Notes under the pieces: generated by a model
The model's input: the letters and a program-made list of their open reading frames with translations, nothing else
What the model was told of the DNA's origin: nothing
The model's database searches: none
DNA from: Echinarachnius parma
Taxonomy: Eukaryota; Echinodermata; Echinoidea; Clypeasteroida; Echinarachniidae
Assembly: GCA_037951105.1 (NCBI GenBank)
Contig: JBAMJV010007150.1
Coordinates: 1 to 64,000 of the forward strand
DNA: 64,000 bases
Reading direction: 5' to 3'
In this document: positions 29,572 through 64,000 of the stretch, piece by piece
Layout of the letters: the number at the start of each line of letters is the position of its first letter
Position numbering within the stretch: position 1 is the stretch's first letter
Translations under genes and position numbers: made by a program

Positions 29572-29623
29572 ATGATGGTAGTTATTGCCTCAAATCTAAT
29601 TGTGGTGGTATCATTTGCTTTAC
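29572..29623 (+). CDS. Gene A exon 1: signal peptide
   Basis: MMVVIASNLIVVVSFAL is hydrophobic and ends at TTAC|GTAAGT in phase 1. An ATG at 29561 opens a four-codon upstream frame that stops at TGA overlapping the real start, so 29572 is preferred. Confidence 0.75.
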
Positions 29624-32600
29624 GTAAGTATTAACCAGTGCAGTGGTATAACAATGCAGCTATTAATTGTATCAGATAATAATGTCCTTAATTCCTCAAG
29701 GAATAAAAACAATACAAATAAGATTGACTTATACTTAGTCGCTACATACAATTGATGAGCGGCAATAAACACATAAAATGAGAAAGTTCTTCTTGGAATT
29801 TAAATATCGTTATGAATAGAAATGTGTGAACTTATACTTATTATGAATTCAATAACAAATTTTCGTAATGCCTCCGTCTTATTTTTGAGGTAATTTTAAT
29901 AATTTATGTATGTGATGATATTTTACCGAACCTTTCTGTTACCTTAATTACCTCACTTTTTAAAAGGTTGTTCGGGAGAAAAAGAAAATTGTGATTGTAG
30001 GTTGTATGTTTCATTTCCCGGATAAGGAATAATAATAATAACGGGAAAGCAATTTGGAAAAGCCGAGAGCTGTTTTATGCTTCTATTGGTAATCTTAATA
30101 CAACAAGGTTTGTGATAACAACAAGGTTTTTCTAAGTAGATCGCAATTTCTCATTCAGCTTGGTCAACGGCGAGGAAAAAGTGACCGCCCTGATCATTCT
30201 CTGATCTCATACCTCTTTATATAGCAATGCAAACTATGTCTTAAAAAAGAAAGAATATGACATACTGTGTACTGATGTAATAATTTTTCAAATGTGCGCT
30301 ACATTCCATTACAGACCAAATTAATGTCAACGGTGAAGATAGCTCAAACAGCATCACCTTGGTGAATGGGATTACTGGAGACAATGTATCTCTCACCTGT
30401 ACCCTGCATCCAGATATAGTACATCTCAGCCAGGTACTCTCGGTAGAATGGAGACGAAACAATACCCAATTTTTTTCATGCCCAAATATTTCGGAGTGTA
30501 TTGGATCAAGAAGAATAAGCAATCGGTTTCGTCACATTTTTGAGACATCGGTTCCATTCAAAAGTTCTGTGTTGATATACAACTCATCAATTCCAGACGA
30601 AGGGAACTATTCATGTGGTATCTTTGCCAAGGGACGCGCTACTTCAAAAAGGTTTATGCTGTATATTGAAGGTACGAATCACTTTGCACTTGTCGAATAA
30701 ATTAGTGCTTGTTTACTTTCATAGCCATTAGAACAAACAACTGTCTATCAACAAAAATATGTTTTATTTAGCAGGAATCAATTTGCCTTGCAGAGAATTT
30801 TGAAACCGTTTTATATTTACCACTTCATATGTTACTTACCATATCCTAGCCATACGGGATTGTTCATTGAACAGTAATGCTAATTCTAAACTTTCATGAC
30901 GTCTTTCCTAAATGTACTTTTGCAAGGACTCAATTGTCTTCGCAAATTATATATGTAACAGCAAGTATGAAAACACAATCCACTCTTTACGGAAAACTAT
31001 TATTTATCCAAATATGCATAAAACAATAACACGTTGTTCATTTCATTATCTTTCCGTAATTGCTCGTCCTTTTATATAGAAATTAGTGTTGGACTATAAT
31101 CACAATTAAAATGATGATAACATCACTTTTCATTTTGTAGTTCTGGTGATACTGCACAAATTATGTTACAATCCTTGTGTAAGAAATGTATGGTATCTGG
31201 GTATTAAATCTTATCCTCCATTTCCCGATATTTATTTTACATCGAAGAGACATGGGCACACATCGGCAGTGATCACGGTGATGACACAAAATGATGTTTT
31301 GTTAGCGGGTAAAATGAAATAAGCTTAAGTACATAGGTAGGAAAATAACTATGTTCTAATCGCTTGATTGGGTGAGAAGGTAAGGTTGTCTGAATATACA
31401 TATTGTGTGTATGTGAGGGGTATCTAAAATGAGCCGTTGATAGTCTGCACAGGGAAGACTGTCATGACTGTTAGGCATGTTTTCAGATATCTACACTTAA
31501 TCGCTGCCCATATATTGAAATGTTCACATTTTATTTGAAATAAATCCTACGGAGAGGGGGCTGAAGCTCCCAGCTAACCCTAACCCTAACCCACCCCCTT
31601 CCCCGCCCGCTATATCCTATAGGGCGGCATGCTTTAATAATAAACCTACATATTGCACAAAGCGTTCGTCGATCGTAAGTGGCGGTACGCCAATAAACAT
31701 ACAAACTTTCAAGAGAGTTATCCCGCAATGAAACTACATCTGTTAACAAGGGTGACATCGTTTCGCAATACCGTGCGTCCCAAAAAAAACTATACACTTT
31801 TGAAATGGCTGCCGAATAAAAAATATATGATTCTGGGGAAAAGGTTTTATATGTATGGAAAGCTCATAAACTCAACTTTCATATGACACCAAAAAGTACG
31901 AAAGTAATTCATGCTTGGGTGAGCACTGCTCACTTTTGTAAAGGGTATGACAATTAGGTTGCGCAGGAATTAGCCTTCCAATGTGTGAGAGGTAAGTCCT
32001 TTGGAGCTTACAAAATTGAGGGTGATATGATAAATTCATGATCAATTGCGATCAGTTTGGGTTTGCTGAGTGAATTTTATGGTTTATTAAACCAAACTTT
32101 TATGCATGAGTGTACAGTAATTGCATTTTTTTATTGTAGCATTGTAACTTTCCCTGGTAGTCTCAGTGCTGTGTTCATGGGAGTCAGGATGGGGTGATGG
32201 TACATGTACCGATTGACTGATACATTGTTGATTAAGTGATTGATAGCTGAATGTTGATTGTCTAATTCACGGTATTGATTGATTGACTGATAGATTGTGA
32301 TTGATTTCAGGTGTCAATGGATAATAGCAACCAGTCCAATTTGGGAAATGTAGGTAGAATTCGGGTTAAGGGAAGGTGGTCTGGATATTTTGGAGTGGAG
32401 ACCAACGAATATGAATTGTCGAGATATGCACAAGCACACCCAGGAAGAGAGAGAGAGAAAGGGAGAGGGGGGGGGAGGGTCATACATGTCCTCTTGACCC
32501 GTATCCCATCTACCCAACAAAGTCCTACCCTACATTTCACCTCCCCTGCACCATGTACCATCACCCCGTCCTGACTCCCATGAACACACCACTGAGTCTA

Positions 32601-35600
32601 CCAGGGAAAGTTACAATGCTACGATAATAAATGCAATTCCTGTTCACTCATGCATACAATGTTAATCCCATAAACCACAAATTTCACTCAGCAAACCCAA
32701 ACTCATCGCAATTGATCATAAATTGGTCATATCATCCTCAATTCCGTAAGCTCCAAAGGATTTACCTCTCACAAATTGGAAGGCTAATTCCTGCGCAACC
32801 TAATTTTCATACCCTTTACAAAAAAGAGCAGTGCTCACCCAAGCATTAATTATTTTCGGACTTTTTGGTGTCATATGAAAGTTGAGTTTATGAGCTTTCT
32901 ATACATATAAAACTCTCCCCCAGAATCATATATTTTTTATTCGGCAGCCATTTCAAAAGTGTATATTTTTTTTGGGACGCACGGTATATGCTGTAGAACA
33001 TTATGCGGAAGACACTGCGGTTGCTAAGATGTTTTAATGGCGCTGGTTGTTTCTAATTTCAATAATCATGTTATGTTGTGTTGTGATAGCGATTTGTGCA
33101 ATCATTGCTTTGCGTAAATAGTATTTGATTAAAGCTGTCTTCGAAAAAATGTATTCTACTTTTGCTGGTGACTCTTATAATTTCGAATGTTTACATAAAA
33201 TTATAAATATATATTTTCATGCGTATTTTATCAAATCTATTACAGTTAACTTATCACGTTATACATATTTTTCCTTATTTTTACTCCTATATTTTTAAAA
33301 TTTGCATACGATTTTTCGGGGAAAAAAATAATTGATCTGTTTGATTTTTTTCCATTTTGAGCTGAGCGTATTACCCAATATCTTATAATCTTAAGAATCA
33401 CGCTCTCTTATAAATCAAGCAACAGCCATCAGTGAGGACATTGTAAATACCGTGGTGAACATGAATGCTGGAGACAATGTGTCGCTCACCTGTACCCTGC
33501 CTGCGGGAGCCGGAGATCCCAGCCGGATACTAAGGGCCCGAGACCATTCTATCATCTTTAGTTGCACAAGAGTGTCAAGATGCATCCAACCTAGTATAAT
33601 TGCTAATAGGTTTCTACACTTGTTTTCGAGTATTTTGATGGGCAGTTGCAAAGCGTTCTGCAGATATTTCACTCATCAATATCGGACGGAGGGAACTATA
33701 CGTGTGATATTGAAACATTTCCACAGTCGACTCACAAGCGTTTCATGTTGAATATGATAGGTAAGCATAATTTTGCGCGCTCATTTTACTTACTTCCACA
33801 CTGCAAATGGTAATTATGACAATCTTTAGTCGATATGCAGCATGTACGATATATGCGAAGAAAATAAATTCCTGATGAATTTCTTGAGTATCTTCCTACA
33901 TCGGGCAGACATGAGAAAACATCGCCGATATAACAAAATGAGTCTGTAAGGAGAAAATAACAGTTTAAAAATAACTACATACATATCAATAATCTTTTAG
34001 TTGCCTAATTTGGATGTGAGAGCATGTATACTTGTATACGTGTGTTTATGTTTGTTTGCAATGTACCGCGAATGCAGAAACGACTGTTAGACCAGCAATT
34101 TTAAGAGAATGTTAATTTTGTTCAGAGTTTATAGGCCTACAAGTGGTCTCATAACTATATTGGTGTGTAAATAGTTATATTTTTAAGCTGAAATTTTTGG
34201 GGGGAAGGGGTAGCAGCCCCCAGCACAACTACGTACCCCACCTACCAAGGCGCACGGCTGTTCGCCTATAACCTGACATGATCAGCCCTTGCAAAGTTAT
34301 CTCAGTACGTTCCGCATTGAACTGTTGAAGCTCATTCTGTTCGGACGGGTCATACCTTTACGCGATGCATGCTTTGTGGCATTGTTTATAAGGACATTGC
34401 GATTTTAAACATGATTTACTGATGCTGGTTGTTTTTTAATTTAAATCATCATGTTAAGTTTTGTTGTAATGGTGATTTGTGTTATATCTGCAATTTGTAA
34501 GTAGTATTTAATTGTAAATATAAGTTATATATAAGTTTTGGAAACAGAAATAAAATCAATGATGATGTTATTTATAATTTGTTTAAATGATCATAATAAT
34601 TATAATGCTTAAAATGTCGGACATTATTGAGACAAAAATCATCTTAAAGGGATAGTTGAGTTTTGGTTAAACTGAATTTTAATCGAATTGGGAAAGATTT
34701 AAAGGGTACTACCACCCAAAAATAATATTCTTATAAATGAAAGGTAACATCTTTAGTATTCCATTCCATCAACAAGTTCACAAAAATATGATTCCAGAAA
34801 AAAAATATATAATTGGAAAACGCATCACCATTCTAAAGCATGCGTTTATGGGTCTGCATGTACGAGACTACTTTGTCCAGAGCGAACGAATCGCCCGGGA
34901 TTCTATTGTCTCCAAATGTACATGTACGTTTGAACAGCATTGGCGCACTCGCAAATTTTTGGCCCGTACGTATGGCAAGCCGTTTTAACATTTATTCCTA
35001 TTTCTTGATATCAAGAATTCAATTCTTGATATCAAGAATTCGACTTCTTGATATCAAGAATTCATTTCTTGATATCAAGAATTCAATTCTTGATATCAAA
35101 AAATAGAATTCATGATATCAAGAATTCAATTCGTATTTCGAACGCAAGACTATTGCAATGATTATTTTAATATCGAGCGCAAAAGTAATGCAAAAATTCA
35201 CAATTGATTTCGAGCGCAAAAGTAATGCAGAAATCCACTCTGATTTCGTGCTCGAAAGTTGTGCACAAATTCATTGTGATTTGATTTCGAACGCAAAAGT
35301 TGAGCACGAATTCATCCTGCCTGAGCGGTGCGGTGTCGAAAGTCAATGTATCGCGAGAATTCAACTAATGCAAGAATGCATGTTGCCAGCTTGCAGTGCA
35401 TTGACTGTCCCGGTGATTTTCCTTGTATTAGATTTTCATTTCATACTGTTCAATCATATGTTTATTTAGACCATTGATTAATGTTCCATTGATAATGTTG
35501 GATGTGATTCTTTCTAGTTTAATTACTTGTAAAAAAAAAAACATACAAAAACGCGTCTTTGAAAAACGTAAAACGGCAACATATCAAGAAATCTTTTCGT

Positions 35601-38600
35601 GATATGTTGCCAATATACAATGCGCAAACCTGTAGCAAAGATTACCACGTGTGTAATGATATATTCACATTTTTACTGCGCAATTCATTTCAAAATAATA
35701 TTGATCACGTCAGTTAACATAATACTGTCAGATTTGATCATTTTTAGCAAAAAGACATCTAAATGGACTCACAAAACACGCATTGTAAACATAACAAATT
35801 GGCAACATATCATGAATTCATGCGGAACTAATGAATTTGTGATATGTTGCCAAACTGTGCATTTACAATGCGTATTTTGTAAGTCTTTTTAGAAGTTATT
35901 TTGCTTTAAAAATATCATATCTGACGTTACTATTTCAACTAAAATACAAGTAATATTTTACAATTGATCATTCAGAAAAACACATGGACATATTTATTGC
36001 ACAAGGGAGAATCATTACAACAGGTTTGTGCACGTTTATTGGCAGCATATCACGAAATAAACGCACGTGGCCGATATATGGGCTCAGATACTCGCAGTTT
36101 TGTTTACTTTGGCTCTAGTGAGAGTCGTATAGCGTGGTGTGTACACGTGTGTGTGTGTGTCCAAGGAGGTACTATCCTCCTTGGTGTGTCATAGAGCTCT
36201 TTCCCATACAGCTCTATGGTGTGTGTTCATAAAGCACGTCCTGAATCTAGACTAGACACCGCACCGTTCAGGATGAATTCGTGCAATACTTTTGCGTTCC
36301 AAATCAGAATGTATTCCTGCTCAAAGTTTGCGTTCGAAATCAAATTGTATTCCTGCTCAAAGTTTGCGTTCGAAATCAAATTGTATTCCTGCTCAAAGTT
36401 TGCGTTCGAAATCAAATTGTATTCCTGCTCAAAGTTTGCGTTCGAAATCAAATTGTATTCCTGCTCAAATCTTGCGTTCGATATCCAAATGATTTCTTGA
36501 TATCAAGAAATCGAATTCTTGATATCAAAAAATAAATTCTTGATATCAGGATATGAATTCTTGATATCAAGAATTCATTTCTTGCTATCAAGAATTCATT
36601 TCTTGATATCAAGAAATCAATTCTTGATATCAAGAATTCATTTCTTGTTATCAATAATTCAATTCTTGATATCAAGAATTCATTTCTTGATATCAAGAAT
36701 TCGAATTCTTGATATCAAGAATTCGAATTCTTGATATCAAGATTGACCATTGCTTAACAACAGAAAATTATTTCTTGATATCAAGAATTCGAATTCTTGA
36801 TATCAAGAATTCGAATTCTTGATATCAAGAAATGAATTCTTGATATCAAGAATTGAATTCTTGATAACAAGAAATGAATTCTTGATATCAAGAATTGATT
36901 TCTTGATATCAAGAAATGAATTCTTGATATCAAGAAATGATTTTCTGTTGTAAAGCAATGGTAATTCTTGATATCAAGAATTGAATTCTTGATATCAAGA
37001 AATGAATTCTTGATATCAAGAAGTCGAATTCTTGATATCAAGAGTCGAATTCTTGATATCAAGAAATAGGAATAAATGTTAAAACGGCTTGCCATACGTA
37101 CGGAACAAGGAAATAGTAGTGGTTCCGTAAGTGGTCGAAATTAATTTCTTTGTTTGTGAATTACATAACCCTTTGCAAAATGTTGGGTATCTATTATTTT
37201 GATATCACAAAACGGTACCAAAGCATATTGTTATGTGTTGCTCTTTGCCTGGTAGTCCCCTTTAATGTACTGAAATAACCTTCTCTGAAGTAGTTTCCGT
37301 CAGTAGTCAGTCAAATGACATAACGACAGAGGTGCATGGACGAGAGGGAGAAGCTGTGTCACTTGAGTGTAACGGACACGTATATACAACAAAAGGTGAA
37401 TTATTCAAATGGATGCTATGGACGCGGAACAACTCTAGATTGATATTGTGTCATGGAATTGAAAAATGTGAAAATACAACTACCCCATCGAGGAATAGCC
37501 AGCATATATTTGAGTATTCGTCAAACCACTATAACAGTTCCGTAAAGATATTTAATGCATCCATCTCCGACGAAGGAACATACACATGCGTCATTTTTGT
37601 CGCGGTAGACGTGAGAAATACAATCATCGTCTTGAGTATCGAAGGTATGAAGGTTAATGCAAAGTTATTAGAATGAATCAGTAGTTTCATCTTCCAAGAT
37701 ATATTCAAGACAACATATTGGCATTTAATTTGAATTAATTAAATTTAATTAAACAAAAGACTAAAAACAAAATGTTCATCCAACAGAAAACAAATTTAAA
37801 TAAACATATTTAGGAAATAAATGTTGGTGTAAACGTCTTACCAACAATTTCGCTGTTATAGGCAGTGTTGCATATTTAATGTATGTGTTAGCCTTAATTA
37901 TAATAACACAGGTTTATTTGTATGTAATTTGATGTTATTGATTATTGATGATAGTTATAACTACAAAACATTTAATTAGTAGGCATAATGTAACGTGAAG
38001 GATAATATATTTATGCTCAAACCAATGCTTCTCATTTATCTACTTTGTCCATTTAGTTCCGCCTAGGGAGCTTACCATCTGGGACATGGACACCAATACA
38101 ACTTATGAAGATGGAGACACTATAACAGCTATGGCGGGGATGAAAAAGACTTTGAGATGTGAGACGGACGCCCCTGTGAAGCCTGCAGTAACACTGGAAT
38201 GGCAAACAGGCTTCAATCAGTCAGACATGATCCAGATGTACAACATGAAGAGAAATGAGGGAGAACCTGATTCAAGTCTAGTCACCAGCTACACAACAAT
38301 GACGTTCACTGCGATCAAAGAGAGGATTGGAGCAAACATCACATGTTTCGTTAAAAACAACAGTGATGTCCAGCTAAGTTTGAACATACTAGTTAATGGT
38401 AAGTGCGATGTAATTATCCTTGATTAATTCAGGAACTCGGTTTAATTAATTCTTGTCACCGGGTTCCATTCTTTACTGTAAATTATGCAGTCAAGAAAGT
38501 GACTGGTGGGGTTTGTATAGTGGTATTATTACTAACATTTGTATGGCAAAATATATGTTATCCAATAACAATTTCGGGCTCTTTCAATAGGTTTATGAAA

Positions 38601-39734
38601 GTTAAAATGTATTTTTATCATAACAATTTTAATTTCAGTATAATCATGCGAACATATGAAAACAAGATGCAATATCCAATTTAAAAAAAAAATAAGTTCC
38701 GTTTGTCGAAGTTGGGAGATGTTTTGTTGTTGGTTATTGTTAATTCACCTCTTCCTATATATGTTTCGATTGATTTAATATATTTTGCACCAAAATTTTA
38801 ATTCTCTTAGTTCCGATGACTACTACCAGCATGATGACTATCCTTCCTGCATCTGAGAGTGTTGTGCCTTTTTCAGGTCAAACCAGCGCAGGCGAGAGTA
38901 ATGCAACATTGACGTCAGGTCCGGTAAGTTTAAATAGATCGTTGTGAATATAGTTTCTGATAATTAACTTGTTAAGATTGCCTCTGTCGCTAATTTACGG
39001 ATAATTCACGGATAATGGTGGGTAGAGAGACGAGGAAATTACTCTTTACACCTTTTACCAAGTCCAAGTCCAAGTGATTGATTTATCGATTTTGATGATT
39101 TGAAAGGTTTCCCAGCATCTTTTCAGGAAAGTTCTGTCTGTCTGTAGTCAGCATTGTATTGTCTTATTACAGAGTTTTGGTTTAGATTTTCTTTCATAAT
39201 TTATTGTCAAGCACATCGTTACCTTAAAAATAAAACCTTTGAGTTGAAATTCAAATATGGAAACTATCTACACTCGTTCCCTCCTACGCTCTCCAATGTC
39301 CAAAAGAGTGAGTATTCGGCAATATATCATATGAATGCAAATGTATTTATTATCAACTTGACACGAAAGCGAAATGAGAAATAAAAATTCGAATAATTAT
39401 GTGCAAGGGATCAATGAAGTGATGAACTCTGTATAGATTATTTCGAACATGGAAACTACCGGTAATCAGAAATAACAATATAAACACAAATAAGAAAAAA
39501 AAATGTGGCATCCCCACTGCATATTCTCTTATATGATTAAATGTACATTATTTTTTTACAGTTTCCTCCAATGTTCTATCATATTTGTCGGATGATAAGT
39601 TTCATCGCTCTTTGTGTGGCAGTTGTGACTTCATTTGGCATAGGCCTCATCTCCCGAAGGGCGTTTTCTAAGCTGATGAAGAAGCGAAGTTATGGTAACC
39701 GTTAGAACATTGTATGTGTATGTATGCATGAGTT

Positions 39735-39799: not shown

Positions 39800-42700
39800 G
39801 TGCGTGTGCGCATGTGTGTCGGTGTGTGTGCACGCGCATGCGTGTGTATGCGTGTGTGTGTGTGTGTATGTGTGCATGTGTACATAGCACATGTATGTGT
39901 GTATGTATGTGCGTCGTGAGTGCGTGTATGTGCGTGTGTGTGTGTGGGTGTGTGTGTGTGTGTGTGTGCTTGTGTGAGTACACGTGTATGCGCGTGAAGT
40001 TGTGCGTGTATTTATGTATGTATGTGCTTGTGGTTAAATCGAACCTTAGGTTCCACATCCCTGTCAAAAGGGAAGCACTAGTGTAGACAATACAACAGTA
40101 ATTTTCATTATAATGCATTTCAAAATTAGGTTGAACAAATACAAATAAATTATTTATGTGTGGGTTTGTGAGTGCCCGTGTGATCAACAATGTGCTGGTT
40201 TTTATACCGTATGTCCCCAAACAAATTACAATCGGACTTTCTGCAACGATAACTAAAGCTAGTAGACCAATCAGAATGCTATTTCAGGATATGAAACTAT
40301 AACGTATTACCTACAAACTGTATAGTTGTGCTCTGCTTCCATGTATACTTTCTGTCAGCATGACCCGTACTGACTATGTAGGCAATTTTTCCTATTTCCT
40401 TTTCATAGATGCCCCAGGCTCTCATCCCGACAAAAACAAACGATCTTCGCAACGAGACACTAGCACCTTACAACTGGCTCAAGTAGGTGAACCTGTCTGC
40501 AAATTGTCCAAATCTTGCATTTATTCCAGTATGTTCTTGTGATTCGTTGTTCTCGTATGCCTAAATTACCTATTAAAGGGACAGTTCCTCTTTAACAAAA
40601 CGTCTAAACAGTTTCCAGTTGACGGATGGGGATGAATGTAACACACACACACAAAATCAGATCGAACAGCCCTTTAATTTGGATTCTACGAATGAAAAAC
40701 GAATGCGTCCCTCCATCAAACTATACAATATCGGTCAATAAAGGAGTTTAACTGATTTAGCATAATATTACAACAATATTGTACTTATTCTTGTAAAGTT
40801 ATTGTGAAGCCGATATTTGTAAAGGTATGTCACTGAAAAAGATCTTTAAAAAAAAGAATATATAATTACATGTAGTCAGTTTAAGCGAGGTCTGGTTATT
40901 TTGTTTAGTAATCGCTTACCCATTGTTACCCATTTGTTCGCGGGTCACGGGTGAATACACGTACAATGCACAATTAACCGTTGGACGATGGTTTATTAGA
41001 TCATTTTGTCTATAACTCCACGAAAAATAGATTTCAAGCCCTAATTTGTTCAGGCATGCTATTAAATGACATTTTCTTTCAAATAAGACAATAACATCGC
41101 AACTGTTAAAATTTGGCTTGCAAAAGAGGAACTGTCCCTTTAAATACTGTACGCTGATAACTTTACAAAATGTCTTTTGTTGGGCATATGTGTAAAATAT
41201 TTTGAAAGTTCTTTAAAAACGTGGGTGTGTTGAAACTTTGATATTTGTATCTAGAATAAGTCAACTATATTTAGTTAAGATTATACGATGACAATTTTTA
41301 CAAAGCACTTTCATGATTATGGCACACAGTCATCAATCAATCTAGGTTATAAATTAGGCATCTTAAGTGGCTGAAACTTAGCAATGTACGCGTGGTATCG
41401 AATAGTGCTAGTCACTTGAGAACATATTTGTTGATATAATTAGTATTTGTTTGCATAAAAACATAAAACATATTGGTTTCATACAATTGACAAACGTAAA
41501 TATAAGAAGCGATACCATAACAGTGTATTACTGGCGCGCCGAAAGCAGTATTGAATTGAGGAGGGGGGGGGGGGGGGGGCGGGGGCAAAGACATAATAAG
41601 GGACAGGCACGTAGCCAGGATTTTTTACGGGAGGGTACTTAATTTACAAAAACGGGACCGTCGCCAAATTCTTTCCCGGCCAAGACTGCCTCCCAAAAAC
41701 TGTAGAGACCAAGACAATTGATTGAAAGTGCTCTCAGTGGGGGGGAGGGGGGGTTCGTCGCCAAATTTAAATACCATTTGGAGCTGTACGTTATTGGTGT
41801 ACTATAATAATGACTACGTATAATAACAAAACAAATTAAGTATGTTAATATTATGTCGACTCAACGGAACATAATTGTCACTATGTATGTATTGAGGAGA
41901 ATTCAAAATTAATTAGGTCCAATATTAGTTTGTCAATGTAATCATCAGTTATATCATCATGGAATAATATCAAAATATGTCTATGATTTAAATTTATAGA
42001 AATAAATATTTAATTCTCTGAGTTTTAAATTAATATCTAATCTGAAAAAAAAAATTAGACATTTCCCATTTGTCTTTCAACAGCAGGCTGACATTACTGA
42101 CGTATACTCTGAAATCAGCGATATTTGCTCGGACACCGTAACCAAATCAGAAGTCAAGACATCCGGCAGATCAGTGACCACGACATCCGCTGCTTCCGTG
42201 CCAATACAGGGTGGCAATGAACATGCGTATTCCTCGAGGATATACCAAGATGCTGGTGCGACCAATGTAGTATCTGAGCTGCACGTGCCAACTGACCGTA
42301 GTGATGAACGTGCATTATCTTCAAGGCTACACCAAGAGGCTGATTTTGCGGCCACTGAGGACTCTTTCTATATGCCTTTGGATCTGAGTGATGACATGAT
42401 GAATGAACCTTCTGTATCTTCCGGGATACCGCAAGACACCGTTTCGAACACTGCGGACTCTTTCTACATGCCCTTGAATGGTAATGATGGGCCTTCTAAC
42501 ACGTCTAAGGTACACCAAGGCACTATTGCGACCGCATCAGGAGGGTCTTCCTACACGCCAATGGAGCGCAGTGGGCCTAATGAACCTTCTTCATCTTCAA
42601 TATATTTGAAATACACTGGTGCAAGTATAAGAGGAGATGATGAGGTTGAATACGTCAATGTTGCCTCTGAGATCGCTGATCTAGGTAATGTAGACAGACC

Positions 42701-42809
42701 TCATTTATACCAGAATTATAGAGACACGTGTGGATACGTTACTGACGACAAGTTACAAAACATAGATGAAGTAGATGAATATGATGATGTTGTAACAACA
42801 TACTTGTGA
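29572..42809 (+). CDS. Receptor gene A: three-Ig-domain type I membrane receptor with tyrosine-motif tail
   Basis: Eight exons join in frame to 716 codons: 29572-29623, 30315-30671, 37291-37644, 38057-38398, 38811-38923, 39562-39694, 40409-40482, 42084-42809. Product: signal peptide (1-17), two V-like Ig domains (about 18-136 and 137-254), a third Ig domain (255-368), Ser/Thr-rich stalk (369-406), membrane helix (about 417-436), basic juxtamembrane part and a long acidic tail (476-716). Ig exons are phase 1-1, as usual for this superfamily. The role is inferred: cell-surface recognition with phosphotyrosine signalling (SFYMPL twice, VEYVNV, YQNY). Its ligand is unknown. Gene D is a close tandem copy. 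A skipped degenerate Ig exon lies at 33420-33760. Confidence 0.85.
30315..30671 (+). CDS. Gene A exon 2: V-like Ig domain 1
   Basis: 119 codons, phase 1-1 (TTACAG|ACCAAA to TTGAAG|GTACGA). Ig landmarks: GDNVSLTC, VEWRR, DEGNYSC. An extra Cys pair, CPNISEC, sits after the Trp. Several N-glycosylation sequons are present. Confidence 0.88.
31771..32984. mobile_element. TA-flanked foldback element in gene A intron 2, 1214 bp
   Basis: CCGTGCGTCCCAAAAAAA at the left and its complement at the right are each flanked by TA. The arms are inverted over hundreds of bases: GGCTGCCGAATAAAAAATAT, AACTCAACTTTCATATGACA and TAGGTTGCGCAGGAATTAGC each have a complement on the other side. Inner pairs (GGGAGTCAGGA / TCCTGACTCCC) continue toward the centre near 32380. 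There is a G run in the right half. No transposase. Confidence 0.85.
33420..33760 (+). pseudogene. Degenerate Ig exon inside gene A
   Basis: Clearly related to exon 2 of gene A (GDNVSLTCTLP, the Cys pair CTRVSRC, then a GGNYTC-like strand), with acceptor- and donor-like ends. Its length is 341 bases instead of a multiple of three, a one-base loss near 33637 shifts the frame, and the segment that should carry the core Trp is deleted. Inclusion would break the receptor, so it should be skipped. Confidence 0.8.
34703..37261. mobile_element. TTAA-flanked 2.56-kb foldback built of palindromic satellite arrays
   Basis: TTAA at 34699-34702 and 37262-37265; the ends are AGGGTACTACCA and TGGTAGTCCCCT. 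The arms pair over GTACGTATGGCAAGCCGTTT and TAACATTTATTCCTATTTC. Inside are arrays of TTCTTGATATCAAGAA (about 35005-35130, 36490-36745, 36770-36945, 36965-37070), a 36-bp array with GTTTGCGTTCGAAATCAAAT (about 36300-36480), its diverged inverted counterpart (about 35135-35350), and hairpins around GCAACATATCA (about 35575-35615 and 35800-35855). No coding support. Confidence 0.82.
37291..37644 (+). CDS. Gene A exon 3: V-like Ig domain 2
   Basis: 118 codons, phase 1-1 (CTGAAG|TAGTTT to TCGAAG|GTATGA). Landmarks: AVSLEC, FKWMLW, the extra pair CHGIEKC, and DEGTYTC. Its orthologous exon in gene D is 59437-59787. It begins only 26 bases after the right TTAA of the 2.56-kb element. Confidence 0.87.
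38057..38398 (+). CDS. Gene A exon 4: membrane-proximal Ig domain
   Basis: 114 codons, phase 1-1 (ATTTAG|TTCCGC to TTAATG|GTAAGT). Landmarks: KTLRCETD, VTLEW, GANITCFV. Near-identical exons occur in gene B (49189) and gene D (60323). Gene A has Gly (QTGFNQ) where B and D have Cys (HTCFNQ). Confidence 0.9.
38811..38923 (+). CDS. Gene A exon 5: Ser/Thr-rich stalk
   Basis: CTCTTAG|TTCCGATG to GGTCCG|GTAAGT, phase 1 to 0. PMTTTSMMTILPASES and GESNATLTSGP suit an O-glycosylated stalk. Its counterpart in gene D is 61090-61199. Confidence 0.82.
39562..39694 (+). CDS. Gene A exon 6: transmembrane segment
   Basis: TTTTACAG|TTTCCT to AGTTATG|GTAACC, phase 0 to 1. The helix MISFIALCVAVVTSFGIGLI is followed by basic SRRAFSKLMKKR, placing the C-terminus in the cytosol. 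Gene D's exon (61629) keeps the same VAVVTSF core. Confidence 0.88.
39735..40032. repeat. (TG)n microsatellite in gene A intron 6
   Basis: Nearly pure TG at about 39735-39795, then imperfect GTGTGCG/GTATG sequence to about 40030. Gene D has TG-rich sequence at the same intron position (61776-61855, 62050-62425). Confidence 0.9.
40409..40482 (+). CDS. Gene A exon 7: cytoplasmic juxtamembrane
   Basis: TTCATAG|ATGCCC to GCTCAA|GTAGGT, phase 1 to 0. It encodes DAPGSHPDKNKRSSQRDTST. The gene D counterpart is 62674-62747. Confidence 0.82.
40573..41153. mobile_element. TTAA-flanked element in gene A intron 7, 573 bp
   Basis: TTAA at 40573-40576 and 41150-41153. The ends AGGGACAGTTCCTCTTT and its complement bound an inverted, internally deleted copy of 18927-20575. 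It is absent at the same place in gene D, so it inserted after the duplication or was lost from D. Confidence 0.82.
41560..41775 (+). repeat. G-run dispersed repeat in gene A intron 7
   Basis: A G run at about 41562-41585, then GGCACGTAGCCAGGATTTTTT, a 'ccaagac' phrase and another G run. Related to 825-1075. Confidence 0.6.
42084..42809 (+). CDS. Gene A exon 8: cytoplasmic tail with tyrosine-motif repeats, stop
   Basis: TTCAACAG|CAGGCTG opens 241 codons in phase 0, ending at TGA 42807-42809. About five diverged units of 29-33 residues repeat a plan of Ser-rich start, 'hQ-(D/E/G)', then a SFYMPLD-like core. Motifs: YSEI (Tyr 483), SFYMPL (Tyr 571, Tyr 603; ITIM-like S-x-Y-x-x-L), SSYTPM (Tyr 632), VEYVNV (Tyr 665; fits both ITIM and the Grb2 pYxN pattern), YQNY (Tyr 684). 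The first unit has HVP in place of the YMP. Acidic end. The start of the exon is almost the same in gene D at 63892. Confidence 0.87.
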   Translation, partial: QADITDVYSEISDICSDTVTKSEVKTSGRSVTTTSAASVPIQGGNEHAYSSRIYQDAGATNVVSELHVPTDRSDERALSSRLHQEADFAATEDSFYMPLDLSDDMMNEPSVSSGIPQDTVSNTADSFYMPLNGNDGPSNTSKVHQGTIATASGGSSYTPMERSGPNEPSSSSIYLKYTGASIRGDDEVEYVNVASEIADLGNVDRPHLYQNYRDTCGYVTDDKLQNIDEVDEYDDVVTTYL

Positions 42810-42839: not shown

Positions 42840-43340
42840 CCGGTGCAATTAAGAGAGAAGGTGCCATTAAATGCGCCAATTTGGTACCCCCCCCCCCCCC
42901 TCCCCCCGCAAAAAAGCAAACAAAAATTAATACAAAAATATCTAGCCGATAATGAAAGAGCATGCTGATAAGGTTTCGACATCTTGTAGAGAATTACAAG
43001 ACAGGCCTTATGTTTATCAAAATTATGAACACAGGTGTGTCTACATGACTATAAATACTTTAGGTAGCATATTGTGCTCTGCTCCTGCTGCTGCTGATAA
43101 TGGTGATGGTGACTTTGAGCCAATATGGTTGTAAATACGAATTAATTACAATTTATGTCATGTAATTAACTTGAATTAAGCCCGATAAGATCCAAAGACC
43201 TGCTCAGCAGGGACAGATACAGACATGTATCATGTTAAACATAACTATGGGGGCAATGTGGCTACGTGAATGAAGACAGAATGATTTTAAATGGTCACGA
43301 TGATGATGATGATGATGATGACGGCAACGCTGATGATTAT
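42840..43340 (+). pseudogene. Two decayed copies of the gene A tail end
   Basis: At about 42845-43090 a frame reads DRPYVYQNYEHRCVYMT, matching the real tail's DRPHLYQNYRDTCGYVT. At about 43185-43340 a second, more broken copy has RDRYRHVSC-like sequence, CGYVNED and an Asp-rich end, now a (GATGAT)n tract at about 43299-43320. A C run splits the first copy (about 42887-42907). Both lie after the stop codon, possibly in the 3' untranslated region. Confidence 0.6.
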
Positions 43341-47260: not shown

Positions 47261-47330
47261 ATGGAGTTCATAGCAATTTTTATCTTCATCAAATTTACAT
47301 ACGCACTTGGACATGAGGATTTGTTTAGTG
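47261..47330 (+). CDS. Gene B exon 1: signal peptide
   Basis: MEFIAIFIFIKFTYALGHED is strongly hydrophobic at its start and ends at TTTAGTG|GTAAGA in phase 1. An in-frame upstream ATG at 47204 exists; 47261 is chosen because the hydrophobic core follows it directly. Confidence 0.7.
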
Positions 47331-51075: not shown

Positions 51076-54000
51076 CTGTGAAACATACATAAATATAACA
51101 TGGATACATTGATACAATCATTCCACAATGAATATGCAATTTTTTCCTTTAAAACATTTGAATGTTTTTGAGCTTTATGCATAAGTAAAGATATTGAGAA
51201 TCACAATTACCAACAACAATGCAGTGTTTCGAGAAAAACAGAACAAGTGTCTATACAACAATGATCATTCAACAGTTCAAATTGTAAATTGTTTCATGTA
51301 AATATGACGTACATAAAGGTGTAAAAACTAAAGGGATCCAACACCCAAAAATATCCTATTCCACCAAACAGTTAAGAAAAAAAGGTTTACAAAAGTTATT
51401 TTAATTTGAAAACCTATCATCATACTAACAGAAACAAAGTATGTGTCGATTGGTCTACAGAAGATGTATAGTCTGAGACCAACGCGTTATATTGTCTCTT
51501 AATTTGCCCTTATTGCGAAGTAACTTGCTTGCATCACGGGCACGATTAAGGAATCATCTTTGATAATACATCATTAAAATATGAATGAAGCTTTAAACCT
51601 TTAAGATTTTTCTACAGACTACAGACCACCCTCAGATCAACTTTTATATGAGAACACAATCTCGGTTGAATTGCCTGCCAGAGCCGTGTGGTGAGGGATC
51701 TAGTAACTTTATAATCAAGTGCAAATAGTAATGAGCGATTACAATGTGTATGGGAGTGGTCTGATATGTCACAAATTAATGTGTGAAAAAATTCCTTTGA
51801 ATTGTTTTTGGGCTGAGATATGAGCAAAAATGCAACGTGATATTTACTAACTCATTGTACGTCAATGAAACCTAATAGAAAAATACTTTAAAAAGAGATA
51901 CTTACTTTTCTTATGTGCATTGCCATCTCTTTTACAAAGCTGTTTGATATCTGGAAAAGAAATAGAGGAATAGTTTAACAGTCAGCGGGGAATGGTGACT
52001 TCTTTTCCGAAGTCCTTTAGGGTGATGTGATAATTGCTTTAAGCACAACAATCATGTAAACTAGTTGTTCAAGACCGAGTATAATAGGTTTGTCAAGCTT
52101 CTAGAGCAGTAAATAAAGTCACTAATTAATATTAGTTTAGAAATAATTGTATTTTAATTAACGATTTTCACTGGAGTATCATAGCGCTTAAAACAAAGTT
52201 ATTAATACAAATTCCCAGTTTAATCCTATAATAATGTATTTGTTGATTTGTTCCTACCTCCTCGAACTGCTTCATACTTCATCTGGAAGAGGAACACCCA
52301 AAGAGCTGATGTTACCAATATCACGCAAACATATCCAATGACATGTCCAGCTACCTGTCCATTTATCTGATAATCACTGCATTCTGGAAATGAAAATAAT
52401 ATTCATGAATTTCCTGACAGGCATATATTGTTCTATATAGTTATTATGGTAATGATATCTGCCTGTCTCTACTTATCTCCACAGAGTCCTCTACTAACAC
52501 TTTTACCATCGGGACAGAGCAGTGGATAAATATCGGTACACGGGATGGAGGTGTTAATTTAAGCAAGGATGTAAGGCTAATTTGTGGACAGGGACTGATA
52601 CAAATACATGGGCATTTATGTATTAGTCATGTAACGTCATCATATTTTTAACGCAAAGTATCATGTATAAACATAATGTAAGACAAATGTATATTAAAAA
52701 AGAAAACTTACCACAGATTTTAGGACGAGGCGGTGAACTTACCATTTCAGTATAATACTCTTGCGTCGTTATGATGGACGCTGGAGCTGTCGTTAATTCA
52801 TCAGGAGCCTCTGAGGCATTAACTGCAAATTTCAATATATAAGTGATAATATATTGATATTAAGCAATGTCGAAAATATGTATCCTGTAATCTAAATTTC
52901 CGGCGAAGAGAGTTCGATTGTATGGCCTAGAATATGTAGAAGTTGATCTAATTATATTTACATAATTATAACTATTGTTTTTCGTATACTGTGTATTTTC
53001 ATCATATGAATGGTCATTTTGCCTTTATACAGCGTCATAATGCATGGAATATGGTTCGATGAATGATTTTGTTTATTCGTTGTTATAATACATTATATCA
53101 AAACGTTTTCTTTAAATATTTACGTTTTAAAAATGGTATCTTGACCTTTTCAGAAAATGTATATCTTATATAAAATATTGCAGTTCAAATATGATTTTGT
53201 TTTCATGTTTTATACACCACACAAATTATAAAACATGTTCCATAAAACAAGCAAATTTTGAAGATGAACACATGAGTCCTGAAATTGGAAAATGTTTACT
53301 AACCTAATATGAGGCGTACGTCAGAATGATATAATCATTCTGTCCAATAAACGATACACCTGTAGATCCCCGCTTCATTATGTGAAACATGTGGTATCAT
53401 CAGCGAAAAGTCTGATGAGATGTCAAGTCCTGTCCCAGGTGGATATATTGCTCCTTTGCTCCATGACAGAATAATAGGGCCGCCATTCACATACACACTT
53501 TCATTCGTACTTTTATACCAATCAATCGAGAGGATACTGCCCACGTTAGATTGGTTTATTGGTGCACATGGCAATTTTCCTGTTGAATATTCCAGAACAG
53601 TTGTGTCCAGAATCTGATCACTTGCTGCAGCTGAAATTAAACAGATAATAAAGTAAAATTAACATTAATGGATATGTCTTGTTTAATACAATCGTCATGT
53701 TTATTTATTGTAATAAAACCATAAAGTATTCTATATAATGAATTAGCAATTAATCATATACATAGCTAAATGCTAAATTATGTAGCTGACTGGAGCCTGT
53801 TTGACTCAGTCATACACAAGTTTATCTTGGTTTTAAAACAGAGAAGATCAGTTGTAAGCGCCGCATTATATCATCCAGGTTCATGCATGCAAAAAGGATA
53901 ATACGTGGCTACTTAAAGATGGTTGGCTCATCATTAAAATCTAACACTCAGTTTTTCATTATTTCACAAATCAAAACTTAATTACCCCCTTATGAGAGTG

Positions 54001-56590: not shown

Positions 56591-56604
56591 TTTTTTTCAT
56601 TCTA

Positions 56605-57185: not shown

Positions 57186-57194
57186 ATTCATCTG

Positions 57195-57440: not shown

Positions 57441-57533
57441 AGACAGTAGTGTATATTATAATAGGAGGGCGGTCTTTTTGTCTGTCGCCAGGTTTCGTGT
57501 CTGTCGCCAGGATTCGTGTCTGTGAGTCCCCTA

Positions 57534-58823: not shown

Positions 58824-58866
58824 ATGATTTTGATCATAATGCTGATGTTGGGGGCCTCTAATTTTG
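58824..58866 (+). CDS. Gene D exon 1: signal peptide
   Basis: MILIIMLMLGASNF ends at TTTTG|GTAAGT in phase 1. Short but strongly hydrophobic. Confidence 0.7.
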
Positions 58867-61800
58867 GTAAGTTTTATCAATTGCCAGATATATTATTTAC
58901 TGTATAATTCTAGTTTCCATTGCACTTTTCTAGTTTAATTGTACATGATATGTACAATATATTCGTGTTGTACAATGTTACATATTTGAATTAACAATAT
59001 AAAATAAACTGAACTGAACTGTAGTCTAAGCTTCTACCTTTACTCTCGTTTAAGTCAGTTTTAAAAAAAGAAACCTACACCGCTGACACCTGCCTTGATT
59101 TGGTTAGTAACTGTTTTTCCCAGATACATTGCCATTGCATTTGTAAACATATATACAGCAGCTGCCTATCCTAATTATATTGGCAGGGGTGAACTCGTCG
59201 ATATCCACTGAGCTCAGACTAGCACATGAATTACAAATGGTATCTATGAAGTAAACATCTAATAGGGTCTTTGTTTGTGAAGGTATCGGTATTCCCGAAG
59301 ATCTTGGGAGCGATATCCAACTATGCCAACGAAGCCCTAAATCCTGTTCATTATCATGTTATTTTTTCCTCGTGTTTTTCCTTGTACTCGAAAAGGGCAA
59401 TTTTGAATGTTCCTAAATTATGTTTTCTTTATCAAGTTTCTGTGAATAGTCAGCCGGATATCACAAGGAAAGAGGTCCGTGGAAGAGAGGGGGAAAATGT
59501 CATACTCGAGTGTGAAGGGCATTTAGATACAGCAAATGGACAATCGTTTGGTTGGATGCGATGGGAGCGGCACAAACTTAACTTCCTACTTTGTACTGAT
59601 ATTGATGAATGTGAAAATAAAACCCTCACTTTAAAACGGATTAGCGAGCATACTTTTAAGTCCTCGTCAGAATTCTTCAGCAGTTCTATGAAGATAGTGA
59701 ATGCATCTATCTCCGACGAAGGAACGTATACATGTGTCATTCATGTCACGTATGCGATAACAACAACCATCGTGCTGGTTATCGAAGGTAATTATAAAAA
59801 TCGTAATGGAATCTTGAAATTAATCAATACCAGGCATTGTTGCCAATCCGAAACTAATATTTTGTAGAATTCAGCATTCGTATTCCAATACAATGAAGTG
59901 GTACGCAATATTTTGGTCTGTTAATATGTTTATACGTACAAATAATCAAACGTATACGGCATTTAACATTCCCTTCCCACATCAAAACAATCATATCAAT
60001 TAATATAAAATAACAAAATCATAGAAGATGTAAGTATTAAGTATGTACAGGCTGATATATCCCTGTTATTAAATGTGATCCATGATGATAGTCCCTGGCG
60101 CTCTGTTGTTTTAATGTAGATGTATGTGCTAGCACTAATCATGTTGGCAAAGTGATCGGGGCATATTATATAATGCACATGTACGTTAATATTTTAATTA
60201 GGATGTATCAAGGAAACATTTTCTACAACAATCTTAAGACAAATGAAGCTCATGATGATCGTTCCCATAATAAATTATGTGTGTCGTTCCATCCATGTGT
60301 GTCGTGTATGTCGTTCATGTAGTGCCGCCAAAGGGACTTATCATCCGGGACATGGACACGAATATAACTTATGCAGAAGACTGTACTATAGCAGATATGG
60401 CGGGGATGAACAAGACTCTGAGGTGCGAGACGGACGCCCATGTGAAGCCTGCAGTAACACTGGAATGGCATACATGCTTCAATCAGCCAGACATGATCCA
60501 GATGTACAACATGACCAGAAATGAGGCAAAACCTGATTCAAGTCTAGTCATCAGCTACAGCACAATGATGTTTACGGCGACCGAAGAGAGAAATGGAGCG
60601 AACATCACATGTTTCGTCAAAAACAACAGTGATGTACGGCTCAGCTTGAAACTATTGATCAATGGTCAGTGCGATGTAATTGTCCTTGATTCATTTAGGA
60701 CCTCAGTTTTTATTAATTCGTGTCACTGGGTTACAGTCATTAATTAGTGTGAATGATCCAGTCAAGAAAGTGACTGCTGTGGGTTTTATGGTAATAATTA
60801 TTATAGCAAACGTCTGTATTGTGAAATTTACATACCCATCAGGCCCTATTGATAAATTGTCTGCAACTTAAATGTATTGTCATCATACATTTGTCATAGG
60901 GTGTTAATTTGAGTATAATCATGCGAAACAAATGAAAACAAGATGTAATATCCAATCAAAGACTATGTTTGAGTTTTGTTTGTTAAAGTTAGGTGGTGTT
61001 TTAGTTGTTTGTTATTGTCAATTTAGCCTCTTCTGATCTATGTTTGAATTGATTCAATATATTTTGCATCAACAACTTAATTCTGTTAGTTCCGATGCCT
61101 ACTACAATCATGACGACTATCCTTCCCACATCTGAGAGTTATGTGCCTAAGCCAGGTCGAACCAGCGCTGGCGAGAGTAGTGCAACGGTATCGGGTTCGG
61201 TTAGTTTAAATTGATCATTGTGAATAGTTGCTGATAATTAACCTGTTAAGATTGCCACTGTCACTAATTATATATCACGGACAATGGTGGGTAGAGAGAT
61301 GAAGAAATTACTGACTATTTAAAAATCTTACCAAGTTGAAGACATTGATGATTTGTGAAACCTTTCAAATCACTCAAAAAGTAAAAAGTTTTCCCGAAAG
61401 ATCTGTTTGTCACAATTTGGTATATGTTGTCTTTTTTCGAGAAGGTTTCGGTTAAGATTCTCTTTTATCATTTTCAAGCACTTCATAATCTCGAAACAAA
61501 ACTAAACATTTTAGGATGTAAACTCAAATATATAAACTATAAACTAATCCCCTCCACGCTCTCCAATGTGTGTATGTATGAATATTATTTTCAATGTTTA
61601 TAATTAAATTTATTTACTTTTATTTCAGCTTTCTTGTCGGAAGATAATCATGATCGCTGTTTCTGTGGCAGTTGTGACTTCTTTTGTCATAGGCTTCATC
61701 TCCGGAGCGGCCTTTGCGAAGCTGACGAGGAAGCAAAGTTATGGTAACAATAACACAAATTGTATTTTTGTGTGCAGTGTGTGTGTGTGTGTGCGTATGT

Positions 61801-64000
61801 TATGTATATATTATGTGTGTGGGTGTAGTATACATGTGTGTGAGTGCGCGCGCGGGGATACACCATAGAAGTAGTATATAAATAAGTTTAAACACCGGCA
61901 AACGGGGATATTCCGGAAACCGGGCATATCCCCGGTTTCCGAACAGCTCCGTATAGTGCTTCAGGGATCGTCTTAAGGGCTGTACTGTATGTTCTTTTGA
62001 TTTTTTAAGAATATCCCTTATGTGCCCGTTTTGCATGTTTTTAGACATAGTGGGTGTATAAGTGTGTGTATGTGTGTGTATTTTTAAACCCGCCAATTGT
62101 GCATATTGCCATGTTTACACACCAGCAAACCGGGGACAAGCCAAAAATAATTGAACAAACGGGCATATCCTCGTTTGAAGTTGTTTATAACATTGAAAAA
62201 ACATATCCCCGATTGAAGGCTCTTACAAGTATGTTTGTGTGTGTGCTTGTGTTTGAATCGAAGCTTTGGTTTCGAATCCCTTCCAAAAGATTGTGTAGAA
62301 GTATATTTTCATGTAGGGATATGTTTTGCATTACCTCATAATCAAAATAAAAACAAAAAGTATACGTGTGTGAGTATGTATGTGTGTGTGCGTTCGTTTA
62401 TGTGTGTGTGTGTGTGTGTGATTAAATGTTTGGTTCTACATGTATAACTTAATTTGTAATGACCAATCAGAACAAATTTCGCAGAACAATAATTATACAC
62501 GGAAAATAGTCAAGATAAGTAAATCAATAGTAGCACAGTATCGTCTTCGAAAGTACGAAAGTAAGGTAAGATTGAGTTCGTAAATATGTTAACGTATATA
62601 TTTTTTCAAGTAGCTTTTAATTATGATGACCATTATTTCTACATTCTGAACTATGTTTATGTCTTAATTATAGATGTCCAAGGCTCTCATTCCGATAAAG
62701 ACATACAATCATCTCAACCAGACATGATCACCTTACAACTGACTCAGGTAGGTCTACAAGACAGGACGTGGTCCTAATCTTGGATTTGTTTTAAATTTTG
62801 TTTCCTGACACTTCTGTTCTTGTTTAATGTACACCGATCCGTTTCCAAAATTGTATTTTGGGGCCAAACGTTTTAGGTAAACATTAAATCGTCAATGTTC
62901 TCCAAAATCCTGAGTGTATTGAAACTTTGATTTTTTTTTGATTTTTTTTTTATTAATGAAATTCGAACTTTTTCGTTAAGTGAACTTTAAATATTTAGTT
63001 AAGATAATACACTATTTATAATATTAAAGAAATGCATTCATAATTATGAAATATAGTGATCAATCAATCAAGATTTATTTTACGGAATGGTTATGAATTG
63101 GTCATCCTAAGTGACTGAAACTTAACAATGGACGCGTGGTATCGAGTAGTACTAATCACTTCCGTAAATAGTCTTTGTTATAATAAGTATTTGTTTGGAT
63201 ACAAACAAAAGGCACATAGGTTTCATAAAATTGACATACGATAGCATAGTTGAACACAAATTAACTATGTTTACATTGTGTCAACGGATCTTAATAGTCG
63301 CTATATGGGTACTGAGGAGAATACAAAATAACATAGACCTAATATTCTGTTTTTTAGTTTATAAATTACATAATTCTGAAAGAATATTAAAGGAACTTAG
63401 TAACATTGTCCATATCCTCAAAACTTAATTAGAACTCTAGTTGTTCTCTCATACCTTTTCATATTCATATTAACAATAAAAGCACGGGACAGGTTTCGTT
63501 TTTTTCAAATTTCCATTTCGTTCAAAAGATATTTACGATTGAAGAGTTCAGATATGAAATTGTCTACGGGATCATTTCATGCCGTGTACAAAGTAAGTAG
63601 AATGAGTTCGTGGATATCACTTTGCATTTCTGCTCATATCTCAGCCCAGAAAGCATCCAATTAACGTGAAATCTTCACACATCACTTTGTGTACATATCA
63701 GATCACTCCACTACACATTTTATTAATCACTCATCACTTTTTGCACTTGCCAACAAAGTTAATAGATTCCTTTAAAATATATCGAACATATGATTTTGAT
63801 TTTTTGGCAAGAAATACTTCATTCCCCGAGTCCAAAATTGTTAACTAATCTGAACAAAAATATGAGACATGTCCCATTTGTCTTCAAACAGCAGACTGGC
63901 ATTACTGACCTGTACTCTGAAATCGGCGATATTCGCTCGGACACCGTGTCCAAATCAGAAGTCAAGACATCCGGCAGAACAGTGACCACGACATCCGCTG
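58824..64000 (+). CDS. Receptor gene D: two-Ig paralogue of gene A, runs off the window
   Basis: Visible exons: 58824-58866, 59437-59787, 60323-60664, 61090-61199, 61629-61743, 62674-62747 and 63892 to the window end, all in matching phases (381 residues seen). Order: signal peptide, one V-like Ig domain, membrane-proximal Ig domain, stalk, membrane helix, juxtamembrane part and the start of the tyrosine-motif tail. Compared with gene A it lacks a counterpart of gene A's first Ig exon. The Ig exons, the start of the tail and intron 6 flanks are clearly homologous to gene A, so the two arose by tandem duplication. Extra Cys appear in the second Ig domain (AEDC, WHTC). Role inferred as for gene A. 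Confidence 0.85.
59437..59787 (+). CDS. Gene D exon 2: V-like Ig domain
   Basis: TTATCAAG|TTTCTG to TCGAAG|GTAATT, 117 codons, phase 1-1. Landmarks: NVILEC, GWMRW, the extra pair CTDIDEC, and DEGTYTC. Orthologous to gene A exon 3. The frame is also open upstream into the intron, so the acceptor sets the boundary. Confidence 0.87.
60323..60664 (+). CDS. Gene D exon 3: membrane-proximal Ig domain
   Basis: TTCATGTAG|TGCCGC to TCAATG|GTCAGT, 114 codons, phase 1-1. KTLRCETDA, VTLEWHTCF, GANITCFVKN. It has an added Cys in YAEDCTIAD where gene A has YEDGDTITA, giving four Cys that could form a second disulfide. Confidence 0.88.
61090..61199 (+). CDS. Gene D exon 4: stalk
   Basis: CTGTTAG|TTCCGATG to GGTTCG|GTTAGT, phase 1 to 0, one codon shorter than in gene A. 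PMPTTIMTTILPTSES and GESSATVSGS. Confidence 0.8.
61629..61743 (+). CDS. Gene D exon 5: transmembrane segment
   Basis: TTATTTCAG|CTTTCT to AGTTATG|GTAACA, phase 0 to 1. CRKIIMIAVSVAVVTSFVIG continues FISGAAFAK and basic LTRKQ. Six codons shorter at the start than gene A. Confidence 0.86.
61776..62425. repeat. TG-rich microsatellites and 'gggcatatcc' repeats in gene D intron 5
   Basis: TG-rich at 61776-61855, 62050-62082, 62230-62260 and 62365-62420. Between them CGGGGATAT/CCGGGCATATCCCCGG phrases recur in both orientations (61900-61945, 62130-62215). Confidence 0.75.
62674..62747 (+). CDS. Gene D exon 6: cytoplasmic juxtamembrane
   Basis: TAATTATAG|ATGTCC to ACTCAG|GTAGGT, phase 1 to 0, same length as in gene A. 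It encodes DVQGSHSDKDIQSSQPDMIT. Confidence 0.8.
63425..63845 (-). mobile_element. LINE 3' tail in gene D intron 6 (antisense)
   Basis: Reverse complement of the 45860-46190 type: ACAGGTTTCGTTTTTTTCAA, GATATCACTTTGCATTTCTG, CACATCACTTT, GCCAACAAAGTTAATAGATT. Not present at this place in gene A. Confidence 0.7.
63892..64000 (+). CDS. Gene D exon 7: start of cytoplasmic tail (cut by window end)
   Basis: CTTCAAACAG|CAGACTGG opens TDLYSEIGDIRSDTVSKSEV, nearly the same as gene A's VYSEISDICSDTVTKSEV. The YSEI motif is kept. The rest lies outside the window. Confidence 0.85.

Follow-up and report, generated by a model that had tools for sequence, protein, structure and literature searches.

A candidate cluster of ITIM-type immunoglobulin receptor genes with complete, partial and broken members

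The locus described here raises the question of whether a group of complete, partial and broken immunoglobulin (Ig) receptor genes represents a cluster of recognition receptors, a single receptor gene with alternative or additional 5′ parts, or a set of ordinary adhesion proteins. The window (the whole stretch of DNA analysed, 64,000 bases with an N count of 0) looks like animal DNA, with split genes, dispersed repeats and microsatellites. For the most part, the locus resolves into one complete receptor gene (A), a second gene running past the window end (D), and several partial or broken relatives (Table 1), with a common receptor plan in which two antibody-like domains face outwards and the inner tail bears tyrosines. 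Our best explanation, held with a probability of about 0.6, is a tandem cluster of ITIM-type recognition receptors that would be evolving through duplication, decay and exchange between copies. A sequence-only reading had proposed rapid birth and death among Ig receptor genes, some of them with inhibitory-type tails; for A and its relatives, such turnover and a tail of this type are supported. The invertebrate origin that it suggested is plausible.

Six V-type exons were recognized, of which three are intact (U, A and D), two are broken (B and X) and one carries a stop (C). All V and C2 exons, as read, have phase 1-1, so that any V could be joined to any C2; an extra CX5C pair, located by script, is common to the V exons of U, B, A and D. 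Candidate signal exons were seen for all five plus-strand units (U, B, A, X and D). A whole-window signal-exon scan at strict thresholds returned three rows, all of them from X (two starts with a single donor) or D; the signal exons of U and A were detected at laxer thresholds. The 3′ halves were sought with the A and D exons by tblastn in all six frames (rows below E 1 printed), a search that could overlook short exons (24-44 aa) once they have diverged. The profiles of V and C2 were run by hmmsearch --max against all six frames of the window. Stalk, transmembrane (TM) and juxtamembrane exons were matched in A and D alone, with other tblastn rows at E 0.07-0.8; tail matches below E 1 fell in A, in D, and in tail-like stretches behind A's stop.

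Table 1. Coordinates of the exons and exon-like features assigned to the receptor units of the window
Unit	Feature	Position	Strand	Remarks
U	Candidate signal-peptide exon (MMVVIASNLIVVVSFAL)	29572..29623	+	Phase-1 donor GTAAGTAT, donor score 2.6
U	Intact V-type Ig exon	30315..30671	+	Phase 1-1; CX5C pair; V-set 24.3 bits
B	Signal-like exon	33068..33113	+	In stretch 75% identical over 121 bp to A's signal-exon stretch
B	Dead V exon	33426..33760	+	Frameshift; Trp lost
A	Candidate signal-peptide exon (MLSFVVMVICVISAI)	34451..34496	+	Phase-1 donor GTAAGTAG, score 1.7; mainly homology with B
A	V-type Ig exon	37294..37644	+	
A	C2-type Ig exon	38057..38398	+	
A	Ser/Thr-rich stalk exon	38811..38923	+	
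A	Transmembrane exon	39562..39694	+	
A	Juxtamembrane exon	40409..40482	+	
A	Cytoplasmic tail exon	42084..42809	+	Three strict ITIMs; YxN sites; ~32-aa repeats; stop included
	Tail-like stretches behind A's stop	42985..43330	+	YQNY, E 0.002; CGYV, E 0.81
X	Candidate signal-peptide exon (MEFIAIFIFIKFTYALGHEDLFS)	47261..47330	+	Phase-1 donor, score 4.4
X	Dead V-like exon	47955..48306	+	Frameshift; second Cys to Tyr; weak identification
X	Intact C2 exon	49189..49530	+	Phase 1-1; homology to A/D ends at exon edges
C	Single V-type Ig exon	53304..53630	-	In-frame TGA at 53337-53335
C	Stalk exon	52712..52822	-	
C	Transmembrane exon	52258..52383	-	
C	Juxtamembrane exon	51906..51950	-	Later exons not found
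D	Candidate signal-peptide exon (MILIIMLMLGASNF)	58824..58866	+	Phase-1 donor GTAAGTTT, score 5.0
D	V-type Ig exon	59437..59787	+	
D	C2-type Ig exon	60323..60664	+	
D	Stalk exon	61090..61199	+	
D	Transmembrane exon	61629..61743	+	
D	Juxtamembrane exon	62674..62747	+	
D	Start of tail exon	63892..64000	+	Cut by window end

Genes A and D and the tyrosine-bearing tail

Genes A and D each comprise six exons with an open frame throughout, canonical splice sites and matching phases, and both carry V-set (37.6 and 38.1 bits, respectively; Pfam cut-off 26) and C2-set_2 (CD80-like; 25.9 and 26.7 bits; cut-off 21) domains, in agreement with the earlier claim of two related receptors. Including its signal exon, gene A has a summed exon length of 1785 bases, equal to 594 residues and a stop. 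One alignment of the two genes spans 1298 nucleotide columns, 76% of them identical, with a reported E of 0.0; protein identities are 52% for V and 74% for C2. Both domains are constrained between A and D, with dN/dS values of 0.50 for V (bootstrap 0.28-0.81) and 0.36 for C2 (0.20-0.68); the V exon appears to be under purifying selection on average, and the classic arms-race signature is absent from this comparison. The four shorter pieces, of 24-38 codons each, gave estimates with broad intervals spanning 1 (stalk 0.88, TM 1.47, juxtamembrane 0.66, visible tail 1.23) and are uninformative. Per exon, dS was 0.68 for V, 0.35 for C2, 0.30 for stalk, 0.16 for TM, 0.33 for juxtamembrane and 0.08 for the visible tail, a fall from V to tail that is read as suggestive because the drop is uneven and the short pieces hold 2 to 7 synonymous differences each. 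As judged from these alignments, the V of the pair is older than the C2.

That A and D might be unresolved alleles or an assembly artefact, which the sequence-only reading had named as a possible refutation, is suggested by nothing but their likeness and is hardly credible. Both copies lie within one window free of N, about 22 kb apart, and at 52-74% protein identity; their introns, at 77% (C2-stalk), 71% (stalk-TM) and 54% (V-C2, with no alignable homology in a local test) identity, were judged far beyond allelic. The two genes are thus taken to be paralogues. A dense patch in the C2 of D at 60374-60395 (+) differs from both A and X (YEDGDTITA to YAEDCTIAD, with a Cys gained), and two compensating small indels could be its source. 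Structure prediction for V and C2 from three-row alignments gave mean pLDDT values of 43.0 and 45.5, too poor for use.

In a cytoplasmic tail behind a TM helix, the ITIM consensus is [S/I/V/L]xYxx[I/V/L], and three sites in A satisfy it. The inner part of A contains 15 Tyr among its 270 residues and three strict ITIMs (SFYMPL twice, VEYVNV) versus 0.70 expected, a modest excess reached by 2.98% of 20,000 shuffles; it also contains five Yxx[ILV] (6.6% of shuffles), two YxN (15.6%, i.e., no excess) and no ITAM. The 36 codons of the D tail visible before the window end show YSEI as their one Yxx[ILV] site and contain no strict ITIM; the class of this tail is predicted from the start of A's tail, with which it is 81% identical. 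Tyrosine motifs, previously claimed for both receptors, are therefore present as a full set in A and as this one site in the visible part of D.

Four modules of about 32 residues in the A tail (modules 0-3, with boundaries drawn by eye and 2-5 residues of overlap) align mutually at z 2.5 to 12.1 over the six pairs, suggesting that the tail has probably grown by repetition of a tyrosine module; a fifth module (z -0.1 to 3.3 versus the others) is not convincingly joined to them. Two plus-strand stretches behind A's stop resemble its last tail module, and may perhaps be an alternative last exon or the remains of a lost longer tail. The short-tail forms noted previously were not borne out: the tail of C lies out of view, since its last visible exon ends in a splice donor, and that of D is cut by the window end.

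An A-type protein would be a type I receptor with a signal peptide, V-set Ig, C2-set Ig, Ser/Thr stalk, one TM helix and a long tyrosine tail. Its V domain would bind a ligand on another cell, upon which a Src-type kinase would phosphorylate the tail; the ITIMs would recruit SH2 phosphatases and the YxN sites could recruit Grb2-type adaptors, so that the net output would most likely be inhibitory gating of a blood or epithelial cell. An immune role, like the resemblance of D's unseen tail to A's, is presumptive; the matches among PDB sequences span adhesion and immune proteins alike.

Partial and broken relatives

Unit U looks live but lacks a 3′ half. Its V exon falls slightly under the Pfam cut-off of 26 bits, and its frame stayed open in 8.9% of neutral simulations with 61 substitutions and in 17.8% with 40; between D and U, V dN/dS was 0.36 (0.17-0.68), with synonymous sites near saturation. 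Neither tblastn (rows below E 1) nor the V and C2 profiles (hmmsearch --max) detected A/D-like C2, stalk, TM, juxtamembrane or tail exons in the gaps at 30.7-33.0 and 33.8-34.4 kb. A hydrophobicity scan of the plus strand was negative from 29869 to 33050, leaving U with no evident TM exon of its own; at 34010, behind B, it picked up a hydrophobic stretch unlike the TM exon of A. The V exon of B was recognized by profile in two frames (E 1.2e-8 and 2.5e-8), and the dead Ig exon reported earlier is indeed present here. What had been described as a stray dead exon and a broken sister both exist, but neither is stray: they are parts of incomplete units with candidate signal exons. Between U and B lies an inverted repeat (31768-32206 / 32552-32987; 439 alignment columns, 91% identity) that looks like a fold-back mobile element.

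For the broken sister at 47.3-49.5 kb (X), the C2 exon is clear, whereas the V-like exon is a weak match and hence less certain. The latter is matched by profile at E 0.023 in one frame and E 0.41 in another, and at the nucleotide level it resembles neither A nor D (z -0.5 and -0.4); its position and a CX4C pair, seen by eye in the chosen frame, support its identification. No recognizable TM or tail exon was found for X upstream of D (tblastn, rows below E 1), and a plus-strand scan showed several hydrophobic stretches between X and D.

The X C2 exon is 87% identical to that of D and 83% to that of A, while its flanks match D at chance level (z -1.0 to 0.6) and the V of X, unlike the C2, cannot be aligned with that of D at all. 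Selection alone is unlikely to account for this exon-limited homology, since dS between the D and X C2 exons is merely 0.23 yet the flanks are at chance; a better fit than plain divergence would be exon insertion, or a gene conversion confined by the diverged introns. A mosaic pattern in the X C2 (runs test, P 0.008; A-like early, with 13 of 17 A-like sites in the first 104 bases, and D-like later) was not accepted as proof of conversion because a D-private patch at C2 positions 51-61 accounts for six of the 13 early A-like sites. C2 dN/dS was 0.53 (0.30-1.07) for D-X and 0.30 (0.17-0.55) for A-X, and branch counts of synonymous and nonsynonymous changes (X 9/16, D 4/13, A or ancestor 13/19) give no indication that the X C2 is freer than that of D. 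Its open frame is no sign of function, since 43% of neutral simulations with 25 substitutions remain open.

On the minus strand, the single-Ig gene proposed previously was confirmed to include stalk, TM and inner exons, which can be joined with the Ig exon in phase. That C is live was not borne out: the in-frame TGA lies ten codons ahead of the donor, and the window scan gave no convincing candidate signal exon, suggesting that C is probably dead or truncated. Its Ig exon matches none of the other V exons of the locus, has a V-set score of 23.9 bits, under the Pfam cut-off, and finds one weak match among PDB sequences (MXRA8, E 0.0015).

Competing readings and likeness to known systems

The partial units invite other readings of the 5′ half of the locus. 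U, and formerly B, could be alternative cassettes of signal and V exons that splice onto the C2-stalk-TM-tail part shared with A, as in clustered protocadherins or sDscam, a reading that we regard as possible but rather unlikely. It draws on the uniform 1-1 phases, the candidate signal exon of each plus-strand unit, the gaps after U and B that lack recognizable 3′ exons (and any hydrophobic stretch at 29869-33050), the similar position of X as a 5′ unit upstream of D without recognizable TM and tail, and a U V that is open and constrained relative to D while its sister B is dead. Decay by truncation, however, would yield an equal layout; two of the three incomplete units (B and X) are broken, the neutral open-frame rate of U is weak evidence, and the hydrophobic stretch at 34010 or diverged short exons might conceal missing parts. 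If true, this reading would show how the germline can equip a single inhibitory stem with several V domains. A more specific and doubtful version holds that signal-V cassettes (U, formerly B, and A) are used by alternative promoters on one C2-TM-ITIM part, with V diversifying while exon-limited gene conversion from locus to locus keeps C2 and tail alike; an ITIM receptor would then be split into V and C parts at the germline level, with somatic recombination playing no part. Alternatively, U could supply the first Ig of a three-Ig receptor A (signal 29572, V 30315, V 37294, C2 38057 and onward) with dead B in an intron, possibly the model intended by the sequence-only reading, whose range starts at 29572. 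The phases are compatible, no other gene was recognized in between, and the donor of U's signal exon scores above that of A; this reading is nonetheless unlikely, given that gene D has a single V directly after its signal exon and that A has a signal-like exon of its own at 34451, in a stretch homologous to that of B.

There is an appreciable, if minority, chance that the genes instead encode nectin/IgLON-like proteins of ordinary cell adhesion or neural wiring, whose tail serves for docking and which have no immune role. The PDB matches include neurotrimin, OBCAM, NEGR1, contactins, CAR and NCAM, but such matches are typical of V-set domains generally, and in our judgement it would be unusual for single-copy adhesion genes to have decaying sister units, homology confined to exons and an ITIM tail built from repeats. 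Among 60 of 114 PDB matches to the V profile, CD226 was best (E 6e-9), followed by neurotrimin, the IgE receptor alpha chain, contactin, NCAM, PVR and TIM proteins; the C2 profile had no PDB match up to E 0.1. At E <= 0.01, the protein of gene A matched 16 PDB sequences (CD276 first) and that of D matched 11 (contactin-1 first), all weakly. Thus, the likeness to CD226/PVR-type receptors reads as generic V-set similarity rather than orthology, and the clear orthology to a single-copy adhesion protein that would have spoken against a receptor cluster was not seen among PDB sequences, in which the predicted V-set receptor has no named orthologue.

The cluster of ITIM-type recognition receptors favoured here has a design akin to fast-changing receptor clusters for immune or self/non-self recognition in other animals, and clustered ITIM-type Ig receptors are already known from several phyla; vertebrates too have Ig-ectodomain receptors with ITIM tails. 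KIR/LILR and NITR genes are likewise clustered receptors with inhibitory tails and dead members, and NITR V domains carry an FGxG joining motif. To our knowledge, KIR/LILR have C2-type Ig domains only and no V domain. The earlier comparison with these families stands for lifestyle (birth and death) but not for membership: A and D have V-set as their top Pfam match, the FGxG motif occurs in none of the three intact V exons (U, A and D), and V exons of the locus carry an extra CX4-5C pair. Whereas sDscam carries FNIII domains, no FNIII match was found at the locus at E up to 1, and it offers only one candidate live extra cassette. Chelicerate sDscam has tandem 5′ Ig cassettes upstream of shared exons (PMC4835542), a 5′ cassette logic that the locus would share should U serve as a cassette.

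Among the matches listed from open-licence papers, no description fits this locus, and the closest systems are tunicate FcoRs and cnidarian Alr genes; Ig-ectodomain receptors with ITIM tails are reported from cnidarian and tunicate allorecognition loci (PMC12065747). The Hydractinia Alr family comprises 41 clustered IgSF genes for receptors with V-set and I-set domains (PMC11999971) and ITIM/ITAM motifs (PMC12065747); by description alone, both are clustered IgSF receptors with ITIMs, the locus differing in its combination of V and C2-set_2 and in the lack of an ITAM in A. Botryllus FcoR is described as a type I protein 520-610 aa long that combines V-type and C2 Ig domains, a TM and a long tail, sometimes with ITIMs (PMC12065747); it has two C2 domains, and a sushi domain placed between these and the V. 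Gene A resembles it in length (594 aa), in its V, C2 and TM, and in a long tail with three strict ITIMs. Membership fails on sushi and C2 number, as no sushi domain was matched in A or D at E up to 1 and each gene has one C2 exon instead of two. A further cluster whose V and constant exons seemingly age at different rates would offer a test of whether such receptors recur wherever self/non-self discrimination is needed. Searches farther afield produced three stretches fitting the tail pattern in viral contigs and 58 fitting the C2 alignment in prokaryote genomes, none confirmed in either set.

Surrounding sequence

Rfam and ARAGORN returned 0 matches and 0 genes, respectively, on the window. 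Pfam was run on ten further open reading frames (ORFs), seven of them without a match and two with Rhodanese; the low-complexity ORF at 43290-43643 had five matches (RIFIN best), all under cut-offs, and was dismissed. The two rhodanese-domain exons belong to a sulfurtransferase-like gene left of the cluster at 13500-16929 (-), near the end of which the stretch PYTTLLHCEESED occurs twice in one ORF. A's signal-to-V intron holds a palindromic 21-base minisatellite of the TTCTTGATATCAAGAATTCAA type (35000-35132 and 36490-37065) and a 36-base array (36291-36490). A dispersed repeat, with copies 72-78% alike, occurs at 6720-6926, 45855-46193, 51694-51860 and 63436-63776, one copy lying directly upstream of D's tail exon, and a tandem array of 29 copies of a 41-base unit (96% matches) occupies 7947-9134.
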